A stretch of DNA of 64,000 nt from Polyangia bacterium (GCA_030427835.1 JAUICN010000014.1:1-64000), one strand, 5' to 3'; shown: positions 9,101 through 54,142, counted from the stretch's first letter. The notes: generated from the letters alone by a model not told the origin. A program made the numbers and translations.

Positions 9101-9130
9101 ACAGTGCCACCCATGTCTGAGGCTGTTCAG
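9101..9130. repeat. Short repeat at a lipoprotein junction, copy 1
   Basis: About 25 of these bases recur at 52651-52677 with two substitutions; the shared core is CACCCATGTCTGAGGC followed by (T/A)GTTCAG. Both copies sit just after the stop codon of one gene and before a lipoprotein gene. The core resembles the iterated end motifs of some insertion sequences, but no transposase is present here, so this may be a relic end or a recombination site. The 230 bp between 9071 and 9301 hold no other gene. Confidence 0.55.
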
Positions 9131-13625: not shown

Positions 13626-13807
13626 AACAGAACTCCATCACATCCGATACCCCAGTGCAACACTCACAGAGCCAGAACTTGACGATCCGTGAACACAAAC
13701 GAATACGCCCCAGTATCTCTTACCGAGGCATTTTCGTCGCCGATGGGAACACGCAGATGCGTGGATCAAATAGCGTCATGTGGCTGTGACGGGCGAGCGC
13801 CCCCAAC

Positions 13808-13839
13808 TGAAAACACCCCGGAAAACCGAGGTGCTTTCA
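13808..13839. terminator. Terminator-like hairpin downstream of groEL
   Basis: Arms TGAAAACACCCCGG and CCGAGGTGCTTTCA pair around an AAAA loop with two mismatches. It is a relative of the hairpin at 13886-13919. Confidence 0.5.
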
Positions 13840-13885
13840 AACTAACTCGTGGGCGCAGGGTGCCGTAGTTGGCGAGCCCCCAATT

Positions 13886-13919
13886 GAAAACGCCCCGGTA
13901 TTTCTACCGAGGCGTTTTC
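13886..13919. terminator. Strong terminator-like hairpin downstream of groEL
   Basis: Fifteen-base arms (13886-13900 and 13905-13919) pair with one mismatch around a four-base loop (TTTC). A-rich and T-rich flanks make it a plausible bidirectional intrinsic terminator for groEL and for anything arriving from the left. A decayed copy lies at 13701-13735. Confidence 0.65.
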
Positions 13920-13992
13920 GTCCCTGATGGGAACACGCAGATGCGTGGATCAGAGGGCGTCAGGTTGCTGTGATTGGCGAGCGCCCCCGGAG

Positions 13993-19194: not shown

Positions 19195-20043
19195 ATGCCA
19201 ACTACTTCCAATCCATCGAATACCACTTCCCAACCGGAGCAGGCCGAAGTTACCGCCCTACCCATGGCCCACGTGGGGCGATTCAACTTCATCGGCTTCC
19301 AAACCCTGCTGCTCAAGGAAATCCGCCGTTTCACCAAGGTGTGGATGCAAACCGTGCTCAGCCCACTCATGAGCACCGCCCTCTACTTTCTTATTTTTGG
19401 CGTGGCCCTGGGCAGCCGCCTGAGGGAAGTGGATGGCGTGCCCTACATTCAGTACGTGGTGCCGGGCCTGGTCATGATGTCCATGATCAACGCGTCCTTC
19501 CTCAATACCTCCTCCAGCCTCTTCCAATCCAAAATCAACGGCACCATCAACGACATTCTCATCGCGCCGCTGGGTTGGATGGAAATCCTGTCGGCCTACA
19601 TCGCAGCTGCCGCCGTTCGCGCCTTTGTGGTGGGTGGCCTTGTGTGGAGCACCGCCGCCTTTTTCATTGGCCCGCAAATCCACAACCTGGGCCTCACCCT
19701 GTTCTTTGCACTCACCGTGGTGGTGGCCTTTGCCCTGCTTGGACTTGTGGTGGCACTGCACGCCCAAAAGTTTGATCACCTGGCAGTCATTCCAAGCTTC
19801 GTACTCACACCACTCACGTTCCTGGGTGGAGTCTTCTACTCCGTGGACATGCTGCCCGAACCCTGGTCGAACGTGGCCACCTACAACCCCATCCTGCACA
19901 TGGTCAGCGGCCTCAGGCACGGCATGCTCGGCACGGGCGACGTCAACCCCGCCACCGCCGCCGTCGTCGTCCTATGCGTACTCGCCCCCGCAGCCGCCCT
20001 CACCGCCCGAACCTTCGCCCGCGGCACCAAGCTGCGCAGCTAG
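19195..20043 (+). CDS. yadH: ABC-2 exporter permease, YadH-like
   Basis: A 282-residue inner-membrane subunit with six hydrophobic segments. Diagnostic stretches are LYFLIFGVALGSRL, QYVVPGLVMMSMI, PLTFLGGVFYSVDMLP and NPILHMVSGLRHGMLG, as in YadH. It works with the ATPase encoded just upstream. Its last 56 bases (19987-20042) recur nearly perfectly at 25616-25671, on the far side of a lipoprotein block, so the original downstream neighbour was probably the gene at 25725. Confidence 0.92.
   Translation: MPTTSNPSNTTSQPEQAEVTALPMAHVGRFNFIGFQTLLLKEIRRFTKVWMQTVLSPLMSTALYFLIFGVALGSRLREVDGVPYIQYVVPGLVMMSMINASFLNTSSSLFQSKINGTINDILIAPLGWMEILSAYIAAAAVRAFVVGGLVWSTAAFFIGPQIHNLGLTLFFALTVVVAFALLGLVVALHAQKFDHLAVIPSFVLTPLTFLGGVFYSVDMLPEPWSNVATYNPILHMVSGLRHGMLGTGDVNPATAAVVVLCVLAPAAALTARTFARGTKLRS
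19987..20042 (+). repeat. 56-bp direct repeat, copy 1 (3' end of yadH)
   Basis: The last 18 codons of the yadH-like gene. It is identical to 25616-25671 except for one base (ACC versus GCC in one codon). The repeats bracket the lipoprotein genes at 20053-25615. Confidence 0.95.
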
Positions 20044-20052
20044 ACCGCATTC

Positions 20053-21222
20053 CTACTTGGATGAGCGTCGTTCGATCTTCAAATCGACATTCCAACGGTC
20101 TTTGGCCTGATTAAGGAGATTAATCTCCTCCGCACTATCCATCCCAGGATCACTAAAAAATCTTCCCACCTGCGGCCCCGCCACGAGCGACTCCAGCGAC
20201 GCACAATCGAAAAAGGCATGATAGTCATCCACCACCACACCACTCACGTCCACAGTAGTAAGTCCATCCGCACAGGGCCCGTCGATCAGGATTTCATCCC
20301 CACTTGAGGAACGGCCGAACGACAATTCGCGAAGAGCGGATGGAGCATCCAAAGAAAAACTCCCCTCAATAGGACGACCGTTCAAATCCAACCTCGTCAC
20401 GTCCTGCAACCTCTTGAACGACTTCATTGAGAACAAAACATTCCCCGAAACAGATTGCTCCGACGTTGAGAATTCAAGAGAAGTCACACGACGGTCTACC
20501 CGCCCGGAACGTCCCAAAAACAAATCGATCCCACCCAAACCGGAAACCTCACCAGGAACCACAAGTTTCCATTCGTTCGCACTTGAACCCCCCAGATCGA
20601 TCGCCTCCATACTCGCATGGGCAAGCGCGTGGTTCGCCACAAAACGACCGCCATCACAATGCCACAAACCGTTAAGAACTCCCTGGTGGGAGATCGCATA
20701 GGCAGCCACCGATGCAGAAAGAACATGAATACGCTTGTCGCTGCTGAGACGATGACCATCAAGAGTCGCCGGCAGCGTGACAACAAAGCTCGCCACAATA
20801 GTTCGACGCACAAACTCGCCGTCATTTCCCATGTTCATGGTCACACCAATAGAGACCGCAGGAGGTGCCAACAAGTCCGCTACGATACCCTCTTTCGAAT
20901 GGGTAACAGACACTTTTCCAACAACAGCGTCTCCACCAAATAGGCTCGACGGATCCAACAACTGACTCACCCGTTCGCCAAGCGATGACTCCAGCTTCCA
21001 ATCATGAAACGACCAGAGCCCATCCTTCAACACAGGCAAATAGCCTCGGTTGAGCTCTTGAGCGAGCTTACCTGGAAGGTCTTGTCCACAGGCAAGCACA
21101 CTATTGTCTGCCACGGACTTGGCAAACTCAGGCTCCGCTTCCATGCCCACGCAACCCTGAGTGAGGCCGATAAAAGCCAGAAATAGAACCGGAAAACTAT
21201 ACAATCTAGTCACGATCACCAC
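20053..21222 (-). CDS. Predicted lipoprotein, LRR-like tail, island gene 3
   Basis: A 389-residue lipoprotein. I chose GTG at 21222 because AGGA lies 5 bp upstream; the signal peptide ends IGLTQGC. The C-terminal third shows irregular Leu-rich repeats (VTRLDLNGRPI, LRELSFGRSS, LTTVDVSGVVV, LESLVAGPQV). It is the last gene of a three-gene run on the minus strand, 7 bp after the previous gene, and its stop lies 10 bp from the duplicated yadH end. No enzyme motif. A recognition or adhesion role would fit the repeats, but is inference. Confidence 0.77.
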   Translation of the reverse strand: MVIVTRLYSFPVLFLAFIGLTQGCVGMEAEPEFAKSVADNSVLACGQDLPGKLAQELNRGYLPVLKDGLWSFHDWKLESSLGERVSQLLDPSSLFGGDAVVGKVSVTHSKEGIVADLLAPPAVSIGVTMNMGNDGEFVRRTIVASFVVTLPATLDGHRLSSDKRIHVLSASVAAYAISHQGVLNGLWHCDGGRFVANHALAHASMEAIDLGGSSANEWKLVVPGEVSGLGGIDLFLGRSGRVDRRVTSLEFSTSEQSVSGNVLFSMKSFKRLQDVTRLDLNGRPIEGSFSLDAPSALRELSFGRSSSGDEILIDGPCADGLTTVDVSGVVVDDYHAFFDCASLESLVAGPQVGRFFSDPGMDSAEEINLLNQAKDRWNVDLKIERRSSK

Positions 21223-21229
21223 CCCAGTC

Positions 21230-22459
21230 CTATTGCTTGGGCTTCCACACCATGAAGTCATCATGACTATTCAGCCGCCCGTCTAAGCTGTAGTCCTTGT
21301 ATCCTTTGCCGATCATTTGATCGCCGTCAGTCAGCGGGATAACCGCAATCTGTTGATTGAGCGGACCGTTGACAAATGCATAGTAGTGAAACCCCGTGAG
21401 ATAAGGGAACGTGTTCAAACCAATGTCGTTCAGCACCTCTACGTTGACCCCTATCACTCCTACGGAGTAGGAGGTGACCAGCCCCCTGCCACCCTTGCGA
21501 GGCGCCACAAACCAACCAATGCGCCTTTCACTCGTGGTCACCTCATGGCGAGAATGATGCGTTAACACGTCTTGTGCATCTATTGAGAACCAATTCAGGT
21601 CAGCGACGGGTCTTTGCGGATACAATTCCCGCCAGTTGCGATACCACGAATACGTCTCCCATTCTCTGACGATGGATTCTTTAGAGAGTAGCTGAGGATT
21701 GGCGCCCACCAACTCCGATACGGACCCATCGAACGCTTCAATGCCAGAAAGCAGATCCGCTAGAATCGGTGATTCAAAATCAGACGCCATATCCTCTTCA
21801 AAAGAGTAGCCGTTGTCGCCCATTGCAATAGCAACCTTGGACATCAGTTCACGACCCACCTCCATCACCTCAGCCTTCGAAAAGCGGACACAGCGTCTTA
21901 CTACGCGAGCTGGAAACACACGAGCCTTGTCCTCAGCTTCCAACTCCGCATCCGTCATCGACTCATAGTGCTCCTTTGCTTCGTCCCCATAGTCCCAAAT
22001 GCCAGACTCCTTCTCCAGATCCACAAAACTCTGCGGGTCGAAATCACATCGGTAGTACCAATGTTCACGCCACTCTGTGTTCGGGTCCGCGTTCCCATTG
22101 ATATATCGGTAGCCTACGCCCTTTCCATCGAACCCCAACACGTGCTGCTGATCAGGGTTCCGGGACGTACACTCAGGATCCGTCTCGCCGTTCTCGTCAG
22201 TGGGGCAACCCTCAACCGACCTGCCAAAGGTCAGCCAAAGCTGAGGGTGAACCTTCTTAGGAATTTTGGATTGATCCGTGTACCCAAACAGAAAGTTATA
22301 GCGAGATACCGGGCGCCCGCATTCACTTGGATACTGTTTGCAAATAAAGGCCCTTGCCGGCTCAACTCCCGTCGGATCAGACAACTCACTACTGGTCTTC
22401 ACCAGTGCGTCCGCTGAACAGGCCCCTAGAACCAATACCACTGTCGTTAAGAATCGCAT
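21230..22459 (-). CDS. Predicted lipoprotein, island gene 2
   Basis: A 409-residue lipoprotein. ATG at 22459 follows AGGAGTG; the signal peptide MRFLTTVVLVLGAC is short with a perfect lipobox. The mature part is acidic, has Cys-containing segments near the N-terminus (ICKQYPSECG, EGCPTDENG, DPECTSRN) and no recognised domain. It sits between two other lipoprotein genes with 8-bp and 7-bp gaps, which strongly suggests a single transcript and joint function. Confidence 0.8.
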   Translation of the reverse strand: MRFLTTVVLVLGACSADALVKTSSELSDPTGVEPARAFICKQYPSECGRPVSRYNFLFGYTDQSKIPKKVHPQLWLTFGRSVEGCPTDENGETDPECTSRNPDQQHVLGFDGKGVGYRYINGNADPNTEWREHWYYRCDFDPQSFVDLEKESGIWDYGDEAKEHYESMTDAELEAEDKARVFPARVVRRCVRFSKAEVMEVGRELMSKVAIAMGDNGYSFEEDMASDFESPILADLLSGIEAFDGSVSELVGANPQLLSKESIVREWETYSWYRNWRELYPQRPVADLNWFSIDAQDVLTHHSRHEVTTSERRIGWFVAPRKGGRGLVTSYSVGVIGVNVEVLNDIGLNTFPYLTGFHYYAFVNGPLNQQIAVIPLTDGDQMIGKGYKDYSLDGRLNSHDDFMVWKPKQ

Positions 22460-22467
22460 TTTCACTC

Positions 22468-23994
22468 CTAGTATCCTTCCGCAACAACACGTCCATAGGG
22501 GGTCACGTACACGGAACGAAAATGCAATTGTTTGTCTGTTGGTACGGGACCCGCCTCCGACATTTGCGTGACCACAGGGCGACACGAGACAAGGTACGCA
22601 TGCGGCACCCCTACTCCAATTTCATTATCGTCATCGTCTCCATCGCGTCGTAGCGTCAGCGACCAACCGATCGGCGAACACTCCCCATGGCCATCCGACA
22701 ACTTGTCCAAAAAAATTCCAAAGCGATGGTCAACCGCCGGATAAACACCATTTTTCTCCAACACTTCCAAGATAGGCTTCGACTCGACATCATTGGACAA
22801 CAACATTTGGGCTTCCACAAACTCACTCGACTGAGTCAACCCTCGTCGATAGAAACGCTCGTACGCAAGGTATCTCGTATTAACTTCCTTGCCGTCGAGC
22901 AGAGCTTGCACACGAGATCTCGCGTCAGCCGCCCACACGTGCGCGTGCAAAGACATCCACAACACCAACTTCGGCAATGGCATGTACAAGGCACGGTGCG
23001 TAAACCGAAGGAAATCCTCGGGGCGGTTCTTCACGTTGGCATAGTCAGGTGAACCCACCCGAGTTGTTTCAAAATGTTCGCTAACGCGACGCCATTCATG
23101 GCTAACCGGGCCAGCAAACTCCAAATCTTCACGCACCCTCCCAGTCACACTACGTAGATACCCGTAGGCAGTAGCAAATATGGACAACCGGTTGCTGAGT
23201 CTTTCATTTCCGTCAACGTCCGAAATCGCCTTCAACTGTTGATCGAACGAAAGTGCCGGTAACGGAGGCAACGACGTCTGAATGCCGTCCGTGGGATCTG
23301 CCTTTGTCGTACTGGACGCAAACAACTCCCCTACGATCCCCGTGGGGAGAGCGGCGTTCAACAAACCCTTGTCGCTGAACCACACACCACGGGCCATTTG
23401 CAATGCAGGATCCACGCTCACACCAACGTACGCGATCTCTCCAAGCATGCCGTCGGTCTCGTATGGCTGAAATATCGGATTAAAGCGAAAGCTGTTCCCG
23501 TTGGAGTACATGAGGAGCTCATCAAGAAGAAACAGGTCGGTGTCTGCGCCGTAGGTAGAGTCTTTTCCGCCTGGAAGAGTCAGATCAACATGGGTACTCT
23601 GAACCGTGCCCAGTTGGTCATCGTAGACCGCGCTCCGGGAAAGAATGAAAGGTCCGCCCTCGTATCTCATATGAGAAACCTCCGCGTACCAGGAAACCAT
23701 TCGAGAGGTAAAAATAGCTCTCGCGTCGTACATCGGAGAGTGAACCACATCCCCACGCAACATTTGAACGGAGGCCGGCGCATTGATCAGTGATTGCCTG
23801 TGAACGTACCGGAGAAATTCTGCAAAGTTGGGTTCCACACGCTCCACCCGCGTCACCTTCACTTCGCCCGTGGTTTTCTGAGCACCGGGAGCAAACCCAC
23901 AACCGGCCATGCCCGTCAAAAGCACGGCTGCAAGCGCTGTCGATACATTTGAAATGCACCTACGCGGAACAGATCCTCGAGATACGATATTCAT
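22468..23994 (-). CDS. Predicted lipoprotein, island gene 1
   Basis: A 508-residue lipoprotein and the first gene of the three-gene run. The start is uncertain: ATG at 23994 gives a 32-residue signal peptide ending LTGMAGC, while ATG at 24027 adds 11 residues. No conserved domain is recognised. The protein has a long mixed alpha/beta middle and an acidic DGDDDDNE turn near residue 460. It diverges from the lipoprotein gene at 24251 across a 256-bp, AT-richer spacer that probably holds promoters for both directions. Confidence 0.78.
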   Translation of the reverse strand: MNIVSRGSVPRRCISNVSTALAAVLLTGMAGCGFAPGAQKTTGEVKVTRVERVEPNFAEFLRYVHRQSLINAPASVQMLRGDVVHSPMYDARAIFTSRMVSWYAEVSHMRYEGGPFILSRSAVYDDQLGTVQSTHVDLTLPGGKDSTYGADTDLFLLDELLMYSNGNSFRFNPIFQPYETDGMLGEIAYVGVSVDPALQMARGVWFSDKGLLNAALPTGIVGELFASSTTKADPTDGIQTSLPPLPALSFDQQLKAISDVDGNERLSNRLSIFATAYGYLRSVTGRVREDLEFAGPVSHEWRRVSEHFETTRVGSPDYANVKNRPEDFLRFTHRALYMPLPKLVLWMSLHAHVWAADARSRVQALLDGKEVNTRYLAYERFYRRGLTQSSEFVEAQMLLSNDVESKPILEVLEKNGVYPAVDHRFGIFLDKLSDGHGECSPIGWSLTLRRDGDDDDNEIGVGVPHAYLVSCRPVVTQMSEAGPVPTDKQLHFRSVYVTPYGRVVAEGY

Positions 23995-24250
23995 GGCGCC
24001 ATTCCGGAGAAGCACATCCCGTGCCATGACAAAATCGCCTAGAATTCACAAAACACTCATTAAAATTGGGGTCATTTGTCCACATTTTTTACACTGTATT
24101 GATCGCAACGGAAATGGGACTCAGGTTTGAAAAAGACAACCTTTCACCGAAATGATCAGAGAGCACACCGGAGTGATGAAGCATCCTAGGGTCCGGACAC
24201 CCCAGATCTATCAACCCCGATTCAAATCATGCCCAGCAATCGAGAAAAAT

Positions 24251-25615
24251 ATGAATGGCATAGGTATTGCATCGATGAAGTTTGTTATGACACTAACCTC
24301 CCACACTTCTTCCGGATGCAGATCAACCCACGCTCCAGGGCCGTCCACAAAGGCCCTGTTCCTCTGTGCGGCAACCACAGTAGCCATGTGGAACTGCCAG
24401 GCACCTGGAGAAGACAGTACCGCAAAGGGTCTCGAAGAACGCCGGGTGTGCACAAACGTGGCGGAGGAAACCCTGCTTACGATCGAACCCAGTTTTGACT
24501 TCAGCGCAAAGGCTTGGGACAGTTATTTTGGCGCCGACCTCGCAGAACAGGCATCCCTAGTTCGGTCACTTAATAAGACCCTTCGTGACAACAGCGATCT
24601 CTATGCCTACCTAAAAGCCTACGGCGACAACGTCGGCGAGAACTACCAGTTCGATTCTTCTGATCCAAACAACCTAGACATCACCATCACGAAACAGGGC
24701 GGGGAAAACGAAAGCACGATGCACGTGGTGTTTCACAACGGGGAGGACGCGCTACTTCTTACGGTTCATGGCGAAGGGCTAGACAACTATTTGATGAAGA
24801 ACAACTCCACCAGTTGGGCCATCATTGAACTGGAAAAGTCCCTTGTCGACACCCGTATCAATGATAACCGCAAGTGGGATTTCTCCACGTGCAGCCCAAG
24901 CTTTGGTCGCGTCACCAATGGTGTTGCCGACATCACTCACAGACGCATGGTGAGGGACTACGAGGGACTCTGGCTCTTCGAAGACGCGCTGGACTACGGG
25001 ACGGCAACGGAATACGCATTTCTCAACGAGGTTGCCCAGGGGCGAACCATCTACCCCGCAAAGCCAGCGTTCGAACCCGTACTCTACGATTCGCCCGACA
25101 CCCAAGTGGGAAAACTTGGGCACCTAGATGCCTACTGGTTTCTCAAGGGCCTGGAAATCAGCGCCCCTGAATACCACTACAATGACGTAGAGTACTTCAC
25201 TAAGCCAAACCCCAACATCAAGCACCTTCACATCGACAATTTGAATGCTGGCCTACACGCAACATCCTGGGCCCTACGACACCATCCCAATCTGCAAGAG
25301 TTGCAAATCAATGGCTTTGGCGGGCGCCTCACACCCGTGGCTGAACAAACCGGTGACAGGTACGAACCCACAAACTACGACAATGCATTCGAAGCCCTAG
25401 GCGCGCTCACGGATCTTCACACACTTCGACTCACTTCGGGCCACGTGACCGACGCACAAGTCTCGTTACTTCTAGACACACTCTACAAAACCCAGAAGAC
25501 AGCCCACGCCAACGAGACCGTAATATCTAAGATCACCCTGCCTACCTCAGTCTCAGAACTAGCATTCGCCGAACTCCAAGAAAAGTATCCAAATATTAGT
25601 TTCCTCAGGCGATAA
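24251..25615 (+). CDS. Predicted secreted protein with LRR-like C-terminus, island gene 4
   Basis: About 454 residues, start uncertain among ATGs at 24251, 24275 and 24287. The N-terminus has a hydrophobic stretch (ALFLCAATTVAM) followed by WNC, an imperfect lipobox, so lipidation is possible but not assured. The C-terminal 150 residues carry Leu-rich repeats (IKHLHIDNLN, LQELQINGFG, LHTLRLTSGHV) and end FLRR. The tail plan resembles the lipoproteins at 12060 and 20053. The stop is directly followed by copy 2 of the yadH 3'-end repeat. Confidence 0.72.
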   Translation: MNGIGIASMKFVMTLTSHTSSGCRSTHAPGPSTKALFLCAATTVAMWNCQAPGEDSTAKGLEERRVCTNVAEETLLTIEPSFDFSAKAWDSYFGADLAEQASLVRSLNKTLRDNSDLYAYLKAYGDNVGENYQFDSSDPNNLDITITKQGGENESTMHVVFHNGEDALLLTVHGEGLDNYLMKNNSTSWAIIELEKSLVDTRINDNRKWDFSTCSPSFGRVTNGVADITHRRMVRDYEGLWLFEDALDYGTATEYAFLNEVAQGRTIYPAKPAFEPVLYDSPDTQVGKLGHLDAYWFLKGLEISAPEYHYNDVEYFTKPNPNIKHLHIDNLNAGLHATSWALRHHPNLQELQINGFGGRLTPVAEQTGDRYEPTNYDNAFEALGALTDLHTLRLTSGHVTDAQVSLLLDTLYKTQKTAHANETVISKITLPTSVSELAFAELQEKYPNISFLRR

Positions 25616-25671
25616 CCCGCAGCCGCCCTCACCGCCCGAGCCTTCGCCCGCGGCACCAAGCTGCGCAGCTA
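25616..25671 (+). repeat. 56-bp direct repeat, copy 2
   Basis: Duplicate of the yadH 3' end, still in frame up to a TAA stop but lacking any start. It begins immediately after the stop codon of the island's last gene, so it marks the right boundary of the insertion. The sequence after it leads to the small membrane protein at 25725. Confidence 0.95.
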
Positions 25672-25724: not shown

Positions 25725-26105
25725 GTGCAATCAGAACTCCAAAGCGCCCCAGATCATTCGGAGAACGGTGAAGGCGAAGCACCGCGCTGGCACCGCAAAA
25801 CCGCCACGGCCCTTTGGCTAGCCAACACGCCCGTGGCGCTGGGCCTGGCGGGAACCGGTTGGTGGCTCATGCGCAACGACGACCGTGGCCGCGTCGCCAC
25901 CCCGCACATCGGGGATGCCTACGGCCTATTGCTCGTAGTCCTACCCGCGTTGCTCTTCATCGTAGGCGGGCTGTGGATCCTCTTTCGCCGCAAGCACAGG
26001 TGGATCTTCCTTGTACCCGTGACCACCCTCGCCATCAACGCCATTGCCCTTTGGCTGTTTTGGAAAGCCATCCCCGTGCTGCGCTACTTGCTGCTGCCCA
26101 AGTAA
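25725..26105 (+). CDS. Small membrane protein
   Basis: A 126-residue protein with a charged N-terminus and three hydrophobic segments at about 29-45, 63-85 and 93-112. The start is GTG at 25725; an AGGGAG lies about 20 bp upstream, rather far. It would have been the direct downstream neighbour of yadH before the lipoprotein island arrived, and may belong functionally with that exporter. No family recognised. Confidence 0.65.
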   Translation: MQSELQSAPDHSENGEGEAPRWHRKTATALWLANTPVALGLAGTGWWLMRNDDRGRVATPHIGDAYGLLLVVLPALLFIVGGLWILFRRKHRWIFLVPVTTLAINAIALWLFWKAIPVLRYLLLPK

Positions 26106-26554: not shown

Positions 26555-28387
26555 ATGCCCGCCCCATCACCATCCGCACGCCCCATCTCTCGACTTAAAC
26601 CCACCAAACCTGTCAGCCTGCCCGAGGGCATGGAAAACCGGGAGGGTCACGAGCTTCTGGGCTCCCAGATCATTTGGGAATCCCTGGTCCGTGAGGGCGT
26701 GGACACCCTGTTCGGCTACCCCGGCGGGGCCATCATGCCCTCCTACGACACCCTGATTCAGTACCCGATTCATCACGTGCTGGTACGCCACGAGCAGGGC
26801 GCCTCCCACATGGCGGACGGTTACGCCCGGGCCTCCGGGCGTGTGGGTGTGTGCGTGGCCACCTCCGGCCCCGGCGCCACCAACCTGGTCACCGGCATTG
26901 CGACCGCCATGATGGATTCCGTACCCATGGTGTGCGTCACAGGCCAGGTGCCCTCCACCGCCATTGGCACCGACGCCTTTCAGGAAACCGACATCACCGG
27001 TGTCACGCTCCCCATCACCAAGCACACCTACCTCGTCACCCGGCCCGAGGACATTGCACCCGCAATCCATGAGGCCTTCTACGTGGCCCAATCCGGCCGC
27101 CCAGGCCCCGTGCTTGTGGACATCACCAAGGATGCCCAACAGCAGGCCTGTACCTTCACCTGGGACCCAAGCCCCGTGGTCATGCCAGGCTACCGGCCCA
27201 ACCACACCCCCAAACCCGGGGACCTGCGGCAAGCCCTGGACATGATAGCCCAGGCCAAACGCCCCATCATCTTCTGCGGCCAGGGCGTCGTACGCGCAGA
27301 AGCCACCCAAGCACTCACCGAACTCGTGGAAAAAACCAACATTCCGGTGGCCTGCACCCTGCTTGGCCTTGGCGGCTTTCCCGCCACCCATGACAGGAAC
27401 CTGGGCATGATGGGCATGCACGGGGAATCCTGGGTGAACACCGCCATTCAGGAAGCCGACCTCATCCTTGCCCTGGGCATGCGCTTTGACGACCGCGTCA
27501 CCGGCAACCTCAAAAACTACGCCTTGAACGCCAAGAAAATCCACGTGGAATTGGACCCGGCCGAAATCAACAAAAACGTCGCCGTGGACTGCCCGCTGAT
27601 CGGCGACGTGCGCGACGTGGTGCAGCAGTGGCTCCCCCGCGTGAAAGCCCAACCCATGGGCGATTGGCTCAAGCGCATCGATGCGCTCAAGGGCGACTCC
27701 GCCGTGCGGGACATCCAACAACTCCCCGACACGGGCAAACTCTACGCCGCCCATGTCATTCACGACCTCTACCGGTACACCGAAGGCAACGCGCTCGTCG
27801 TCACCGACGTGGGCCAACACCAAATGTGGGAAGCCCAGTACTACAAGCACGACCACCCGCGAAAGCTCATCACCTCAGGCGGCCTGGGAACCATGGGCTT
27901 TGCGTTGCCCGCAGCCATGGGAGCCAAGTTCGCCAAACCCGATGAAAACGTTTGGATTGTGGTAGGTGACGGGGGCTTTCAAATGACCGCCTGTGAGCTC
28001 ACCACCTGCGCCCAGGAGAACCTCAAGGTCAACATTGCCATCATCAACAACGGCTTTCTCGGCATGGTGCGCCAGTGGCAGGAGTTCTTCTACGGCGGCC
28101 GCTACGTGGCCACCCCCATGAAGAGCCCCGACTTCGTCAAACTGGCCGAGGCCCACGGCCTCAAAGGCATGCGCGTCACCGAACGTGCCGAAGTCAAAAC
28201 AACCGTGGAAGCAGCCCACGCCGAACCCGGCACCGTCGTCGTGGACTTCCGCGTCATCCAGGAAGACAGCGTCTTTCCCATGGTCCCCTCCGGCGCCGAC
28301 CTGGGCGACATGATCCGCCGCCCCGAACAAACCACTCATACCGGCGGCAAACACAACCCCATCTTCGAAACCGGCCAGGACAAGTAA
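26555..28387 (+). CDS. ilvB: Acetolactate synthase, large subunit
   Basis: The 610-residue catalytic subunit condenses two pyruvates to 2-acetolactate (Val/Leu) or pyruvate with 2-oxobutyrate (Ile), using ThDP, Mg and FAD. The ThDP-activating Glu is in VRHEQGASHMADGYARASG; the cofactor motif runs from GDGGFQMT to NNGFLGMVRQWQ; RFDDRVTG fits the FAD domain. The N-terminus is about 35 residues longer than usual and Pro/Ser-rich. The regulatory subunit, normally immediately downstream, starts only at 33848. Confidence 0.95.
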   Translation: MPAPSPSARPISRLKPTKPVSLPEGMENREGHELLGSQIIWESLVREGVDTLFGYPGGAIMPSYDTLIQYPIHHVLVRHEQGASHMADGYARASGRVGVCVATSGPGATNLVTGIATAMMDSVPMVCVTGQVPSTAIGTDAFQETDITGVTLPITKHTYLVTRPEDIAPAIHEAFYVAQSGRPGPVLVDITKDAQQQACTFTWDPSPVVMPGYRPNHTPKPGDLRQALDMIAQAKRPIIFCGQGVVRAEATQALTELVEKTNIPVACTLLGLGGFPATHDRNLGMMGMHGESWVNTAIQEADLILALGMRFDDRVTGNLKNYALNAKKIHVELDPAEINKNVAVDCPLIGDVRDVVQQWLPRVKAQPMGDWLKRIDALKGDSAVRDIQQLPDTGKLYAAHVIHDLYRYTEGNALVVTDVGQHQMWEAQYYKHDHPRKLITSGGLGTMGFALPAAMGAKFAKPDENVWIVVGDGGFQMTACELTTCAQENLKVNIAIINNGFLGMVRQWQEFFYGGRYVATPMKSPDFVKLAEAHGLKGMRVTERAEVKTTVEAAHAEPGTVVVDFRVIQEDSVFPMVPSGADLGDMIRRPEQTTHTGGKHNPIFETGQDK

Positions 28388-52650: not shown

Positions 52651-52677
52651 TGTGTCACCCATGTCTGAGGCAGTTCA
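52651..52677. repeat. Short repeat at a lipoprotein junction, copy 2
   Basis: Matches 9101-9130 through the core CACCCATGTCTGAGGC. It begins 24 bp after the stop of the NodJ-like gene and precedes a lipoprotein gene. The ~130 bp following it up to 52805 contain no recognisable gene or second inverted copy. Confidence 0.55.
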
Positions 52678-52805
52678 GCCAACCGGTGGCAACCATAGAA
52701 GCCAGTACTGCAACCCGCTGACCCTTTTTGGTCCAATCAAACCATACCCGGCGAACATTTTGCCCGAACGAAACTGGCATGTATATTGCAAATGAAACCG
52801 TCATC

Positions 52806-53945: not shown

Positions 53946-54142
53946 CGCACTCCGCATTTGAGACGATGGAGAGCCTAGCCGCAGCAGATTTGGCTCTGGA
54001 GCCAGGAGACGCGCACAGGCGCAGCCAAAGCTACGGCAAACACATACGACACCGATCCAGAGCCAAAGATCACGGCTAAAACTCGATCAGATCGAATCCC
54101 GAGCGCGAGAGCCTGCAAGGCCCACAAGTAAAGGCCGAGGGA

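Follow-up and report, generated by a model that had tools for sequence, protein, structure and literature searches.

Putative lipoprotein genes lie between duplicated housekeeping-gene ends at several loci of a Polyangia genome

In the 64,000-nucleotide stretch of DNA analysed here (hereafter the window; Polyangia bacterium, GCA_030427835.1, JAUICN010000014.1:1-64000), a block of four putative lipoprotein genes is enclosed by the 3' end of a yadH-like permease gene and an orphan copy of that same end. Duplicated ends of other, mostly housekeeping genes enclose inserted genes elsewhere in the genome as well. The pattern suggests that surface lipoprotein genes of this lineage turn over via one-sided recombination at the ends of housekeeping genes.

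A duplicated yadH end brackets four putative lipoprotein genes

The last 56 bases of yadH recur as a direct repeat with one mismatch at a spacing of 5629 bp (Table 1). The second copy abuts the stop codon of the fourth inserted gene, as the earlier note on this DNA had reported. Within 10 kb, an ungapped match of 55 out of 56 positions has a chance expectation of about 1e-23, and the genome-wide search that the note had pointed to returned these two copies of the 56-bp sequence and no others (E = 2.4e-21). Copy 1 ends with the bases TA, the first two of the yadH TAG stop codon. The first base of copy 2 directly follows the TAA of inserted gene 4, and the base after copy 2 is an A, so that the would-be stop codon of the orphan reads TAA. 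Both edges are sharp, as similarity is lost outside the repeat (20-33% identity on both outer sides). The composition shifts at the same place: the G+C content is 0.524 for the 5573 bp between the copies and 0.598 and 0.610 for the two flanks, and the shift coincides with the repeat. The single mismatch is nonsynonymous and turns a Thr codon into an Ala codon in copy 2. With this one difference, a donor allele and a fresh duplication are indistinguishable at yadH. Because the pair has too few differences, the choice of a mechanism rests on other loci and on the positions of the edges.

Table 1. Features of the yadH locus (window positions) and of the other loci with a duplicated gene end (contig positions).
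Feature	Position	Strand	Remarks
yadH-like ABC-2 permease gene (target)	19195-20043	+	stop TAG; Pfam ABC2_membrane 1e-29; NCBIfam PRK15066 2.2e-78, above cut-off
Repeat copy 1, 3' end of intact yadH	19987-20042	+	56 bp
Inserted gene 1, putative lipoprotein	20053-21222	-	weak lipobox TQGC
Inserted gene 2, putative lipoprotein	21230-22459	-	lipobox LGAC; without Pfam family
Inserted gene 3, putative lipoprotein	22468-24027	-	lipobox MAGC; without Pfam family
Divergent intergenic region within the insert	24028-24151	.	AT-rich (38% G+C)
Inserted gene 4, putative lipoprotein	24152-25615	+	weak lipobox MWNC; leucine-rich-repeat-like C-terminus
Repeat copy 2, orphan yadH 3' end	25616-25671	+	56 bp; one mismatch versus copy 1
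Resident downstream gene	25725-26105	+	126-aa membrane protein
ilvB	starts at 26555		beyond the resident 126-aa gene
clpB 3' end	C7:26939-28080		68 bp (last 66 bp plus 2), 97%; brackets a short insert
aspS 3' end	C3:125779-129889 (L087:5779-9889)		copy after each of three successive genes; DNA 88-97% identical
miaE 3' end	C3:134151-135330		about 175 bp; brackets one lipoprotein gene
ychF 5' end	C3:104298-106510		235 bp, 96.6%; brackets one lipoprotein gene
NAD-dependent epimerase 3' end	C9:89505-90472		brackets PIN-domain and AbrB-like genes
Glutamine amidotransferase 5' end	C15:199208-201590		recurs beyond a lipoprotein gene

The earlier note described the block as three co-directional lipoprotein genes and one divergent one. 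This layout stands, and the three minus-strand genes are separated by 7 and 8 bp. The lipobox is clear in genes 2 and 3; the lipoprotein assignment is provisional for genes 1 and 4, which carry weaker motifs. None of the four reaches the cut-off in a Pfam scan. Gene 1 has a 30% identical paralogue at C18:27364-28527, while a search of the genome for the same cassette elsewhere via paralogues of genes 3 and 4 found none. No integrase was found in the block, as the note had stated, and the scanned inserts as a whole contain no transposase or integrase families.

The loci compared (L033-L035) come from myxobacterial and deltaproteobacterial MAGs of the same order, with YadH about 60% identical. 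The gene order yadG, yadH, ..., ilvB, ilvC is kept in all three, and leuA follows suit in the two longer contigs, but relatives of the four inserted genes are present in none. Neither L033 nor L034 represents an exact empty site, as the gap between yadH and ilvB is filled by other genes, among which a kinase and a glyoxalase-like gene. Across 115 other genomes of the same order, gene 4 finds no more than a single marginal match. It has no relatives in the viral contigs searched, and gene 3 has none in the plasmids searched. Since the relatives lack the four genes and gene 4 is nearly unmatched in the order, the four are taken as apparently lineage-specific, as far as tested.

Duplicated ends at other genes

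A scan for local direct repeats and orphan gene ends, covering 1.82 Mb (55%) of the genome, revealed six further target genes with a duplicated end around inserted genes, which are mostly lipoprotein genes. The 3' end is duplicated in clpB, aspS, miaE and an epimerase gene, and the 5' end in ychF and a glutamine amidotransferase gene. The number of loci is a lower bound, as the automatic filter for terminal duplications missed miaE and ychF, both found by eye. Genes were called with a simple hexamer model and lipoproteins with a simple rule; HExxH, AbrB-like and lipobox assignments were made by eye or by simple rule. The targets were identified via NCBIfam, and the names miaE, epimerase and amidotransferase are to be read at family level, as their scores lie below the strict cut-offs. 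The earlier proposal of an insertion at a gene 3' end that leaves a duplicate behind is supported, and the pattern repeats itself within the genome.

The repeats measure 56 bp at yadH and 58-235 bp at the remaining loci. Their sequences differ between loci and are unrelated to one another; each inserted gene is followed by a piece of the host gene at its own locus. The G+C content was measured at five loci, and in every one the insert lies below its flanks. The passengers comprise putative lipoproteins, one uncharacterised ORF and one PIN/AbrB-type pair. Three of the lipoprotein-type proteins, encoded in the aspS array, are divergent and contain an HExxH motif, and a fourth member of their family is located at C3:63413-64522. 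Around eight of the 13 inserted genes encode lipoproteins (simple rule plus inspection), versus around 15% of all called genes, an enrichment (p = 2e-4) that is indicative only since the inserted genes are non-independent. By the simple rule alone, lipobox genes account for around 15% of the called genes in the genome sample and 7% in two relatives. Several inserted lipoproteins belong to families whose members share just 20-33% identity.

Some candidates were discarded. The repeats at C1:44841 and C3:48292 turned out to be flagellin and lipoprotein paralogues rather than duplicated gene ends. A 162-bp repeat that flanks a lipoprotein gene (C7:159784/161762) belongs to a dispersed MITE-like family and corresponds to no gene end, and C18:288366 and C15:230030 were left out because their gene ends are not clear. 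In 0.8 Mb from two control relatives, a sample too small for a firm contrast, no duplicated-end insert was found, versus about three expected at the rate seen in the scanned genome. One relative does carry a 63-bp repeat that contains an apparent tRNA 3' end, with copies around 5.3 kb apart (G003:C8:276006-281396), which looks like the footprint of a classical integrative element. At ychF, an older direct repeat of 105 bp (75%; C3:104513-104616 versus 106160-106264, L086) lies just inside the duplication, as if the site had been hit by two insertions.

Edges and divergence of the copies

One edge of the homology between the young copies falls at or near the terminus of the target gene. The yadH copies part within the stop codon (TAG versus TAA) and the aspS copies at theirs (TGA versus TAA), whereas the clpB copies part 2-3 nt past the stop codon and the ychF copies 23 nt upstream of the start codon. 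At its opposite edge, the duplicated segment begins or ends at variable depth within the target gene. Homology that ends at a gene terminus is to be expected where two alleles with unrelated neighbours were joined, but not from a random target-site duplication.

The older pairs can be read from their substitutions. The miaE copies differ mainly at synonymous positions (pS 0.385 versus pN 0.105; Fisher p = 6e-5), as do those of the amidotransferase gene (pS 0.71 versus pN 0.16; p = 5e-4), and neither pair contains frameshifts. Alleles from different strains would differ in this manner. The epimerase copy shows an in-frame difference of 15 nt and has its own stop codon. Synonymous-rich, in-frame divergence suggests that the miaE and amidotransferase copies evolved as working genes before they met, and the copies at these two loci and at the epimerase gene probably diverged while functional. 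In the aspS array, the three proteins are 22-30% identical, versus 88-97% for the interleaved aspS fragments. Given this gap in identity, the fragments do not stem from the duplication of one gene unit; they are younger than the protein family and mark repeated arrivals. Nonsynonymous change exceeds synonymous change in these fragments, like in decaying copies of one allele, though not significantly, and this look of decay is neutral between the models.

Possible routes of insertion

We lean, with moderate confidence, towards an import of the block from a related strain by a homologous crossover on one side and illegitimate joining on the other. The donor that we infer would be a related strain whose yadH has these lipoprotein genes downstream. 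Its DNA would pair with the resident yadH and cross over inside the gene, and the non-homologous end would be joined illegitimately 56 bp upstream of the resident yadH end. Alternatively, the fragment may have circularised before integrating through a single crossover, which would give the same product: an intact hybrid yadH with the donor stop codon, followed by the new genes, the resident 3' end as an orphan and the original downstream neighbour. This route, taken at 3' ends and mirrored at 5' ends, would repeatedly have added lipoprotein and other accessory genes beside housekeeping genes. Homologues of ComEC and DprA were found in the genome and Ku is absent from it. Both ComEC and DprA are widespread in non-competent bacteria as well, and none of these observations proves competence or a joining route. 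Between the two options raised in the earlier note, homologous exchange fits best.

An insertion with long target duplication, in which a staggered break or a template switch at the resident gene end copies 50-250 bp of the target during the joining of foreign DNA and without any donor allele, would yield an identical end product, and we assign it a minor but appreciable probability. The near-identity of the yadH and clpB copies and the neutral-looking change of the aspS fragments are in line with it, and the toxin-antitoxin-like pair at one other locus is a typical passenger of such insertions. Yet it leaves unexplained why homology is limited by a stop or start in each young case, why the stop codons differ between copies and why the divergence at miaE and the amidotransferase gene is rich in synonymous changes. 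The latter two cases could be remnants of former tandem copies. For yadH itself, an ancient tandem duplication of the gene, possibly with its neighbours, followed by deletion of the second copy down to its last 56 bp, is improbable: similarity is confined to the fragment, at 98% identity, and the inserted genes have no adjacent paralogue. Such a history suits the amidotransferase locus better, where neighbouring lipoproteins are mutually paralogous, and possibly miaE, but in the aspS array divergence among the proteins greatly exceeds that among the intervening fragments.

The earlier note also considered a cassette moved by an enzyme encoded elsewhere, for instance a tyrosine recombinase that uses the 56 bp as attachment site of an integrative element or cassette. 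A direct repeat that regenerates the 3' end of the target gene is indeed the classical footprint of site-specific integration, of which the tRNA-end repeat in the control genome is an example. This option is nevertheless disfavoured and seems very improbable, as no insert contains an integrase, the duplicated sequences are unrelated across loci and two of them are 5' ends. Moreover, the whole genome holds only three tyrosine recombinases, all at C22 and C15 and outside the inserts, and the one at C15:133940 reads by eye as an ordinary chromosomal Xer type. An assembly artefact, in which strain variants of a mixed sample were mis-joined via the shared 56 bp, deserves mention because a short read exceeds the length of the copies and the assembly consists of 30 contigs. 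We consider it very unlikely: at other loci the copies carry substitutions relative to each other and the repeats reach 235 bp, and the stated completeness and contamination are 98% and 0, respectively.

Gain of lineage-specific genes between conserved ones that involves no integrase or transposon usually goes unseen, as a clean homologous exchange is scarless. Here, scars are kept at several loci of one genome, and their edges reveal the homologous versus the non-homologous side, which makes the one-sided import route testable. More speculatively, the duplicated ends may act as portable tags, such that ordinary homologous recombination at the tag lets strains exchange and stack lipoprotein genes that are followed by a host-gene end. 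We hold this extension to be doubtful. If true, housekeeping-gene ends would offer docking sites that need no recombinase to a lipoprotein repertoire that varies between strains, and the aspS array, in which an aspS 3' end comes after each of three divergent proteins, would be an example of such stacking.

Comparison with known systems

In homology-facilitated illegitimate recombination (HFIR), the illegitimate junction relies on 3-10 bp of microhomology, and the process needs RecA and the uptake of linear DNA. One end is homologous and the other illegitimate, and foreign DNA is trapped by a shared gene, as proposed here. The process is known from S. pneumoniae, A. baylyi and P. stutzeri, and both HFIR and the circularisation of linear DNA with single-crossover integration are RecA-dependent (PMC3240628). 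In most of the products described, DNA of similar size has been deleted (PMC3240628), whereas a short duplication is seen here, which counts against import.

Insertion with long target duplication, as the footprint was named, is described for the restriction-modification genes of H. pylori (Nobusato et al. 2000, as cited in PMC1643837 and PMC4978471; see also PMC3154945). There, accessory genes similarly lie between long direct target repeats, with no transposase or integrase inside. The passengers are mainly putative lipoproteins in our case and not restriction-modification genes, which are frequent among the described cases; in addition, the repeats here end at gene termini, and two loci show allele-type divergence. 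In the T6SS of V. cholerae, sequential effector displacement has been proposed to leave orphan immunity arrays (PMC5361080). The proposed repeated one-sided recombination pushes old 3' regions downstream, comparable to aspS, but is anchored inside the effector module, while the anchors here are unrelated housekeeping genes. Integrative elements likewise restore and duplicate the 3' end of the gene or tRNA that they target. The inserts in this genome differ from them in being integrase-free, in lacking a common attachment sequence and in including 5' ends. Integron cassettes resemble them in being small inserts of one or a few genes, of which the last may stop right at the repeat. However, the repeat here is coding sequence of the host gene and not attC; no attC-type site is common to the inserts and no integron platform was seen.

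Other repeats in the genome

The MITE-like dispersed repeat mentioned above is around 162 bp long, has inverted ends (GCGCACCTCATT...AATGAGGTGCGC) and gives 24 matches in the genome. One copy lies in the window (53952-54097, minus strand) and another (G000:C7:27006-27171) inside the clpB insert, where a copy starts right after the clpB end. Two copies flank the lipoprotein gene at C7:159784/161762, and several are located at contig ends. A 26-bp sequence, TGYCACCCATGTCTGAGGCNGTTCAG, is possibly an insertion-sequence end. The genome has six copies of it with at most three mismatches, and both copies in the window (9105-9130 and 52653-52678) lie just upstream of a putative lipoprotein gene. Finally, a sequence of about 104 bp is present as a pair of direct copies (87%) downstream of groEL, at window positions 13701-13988.
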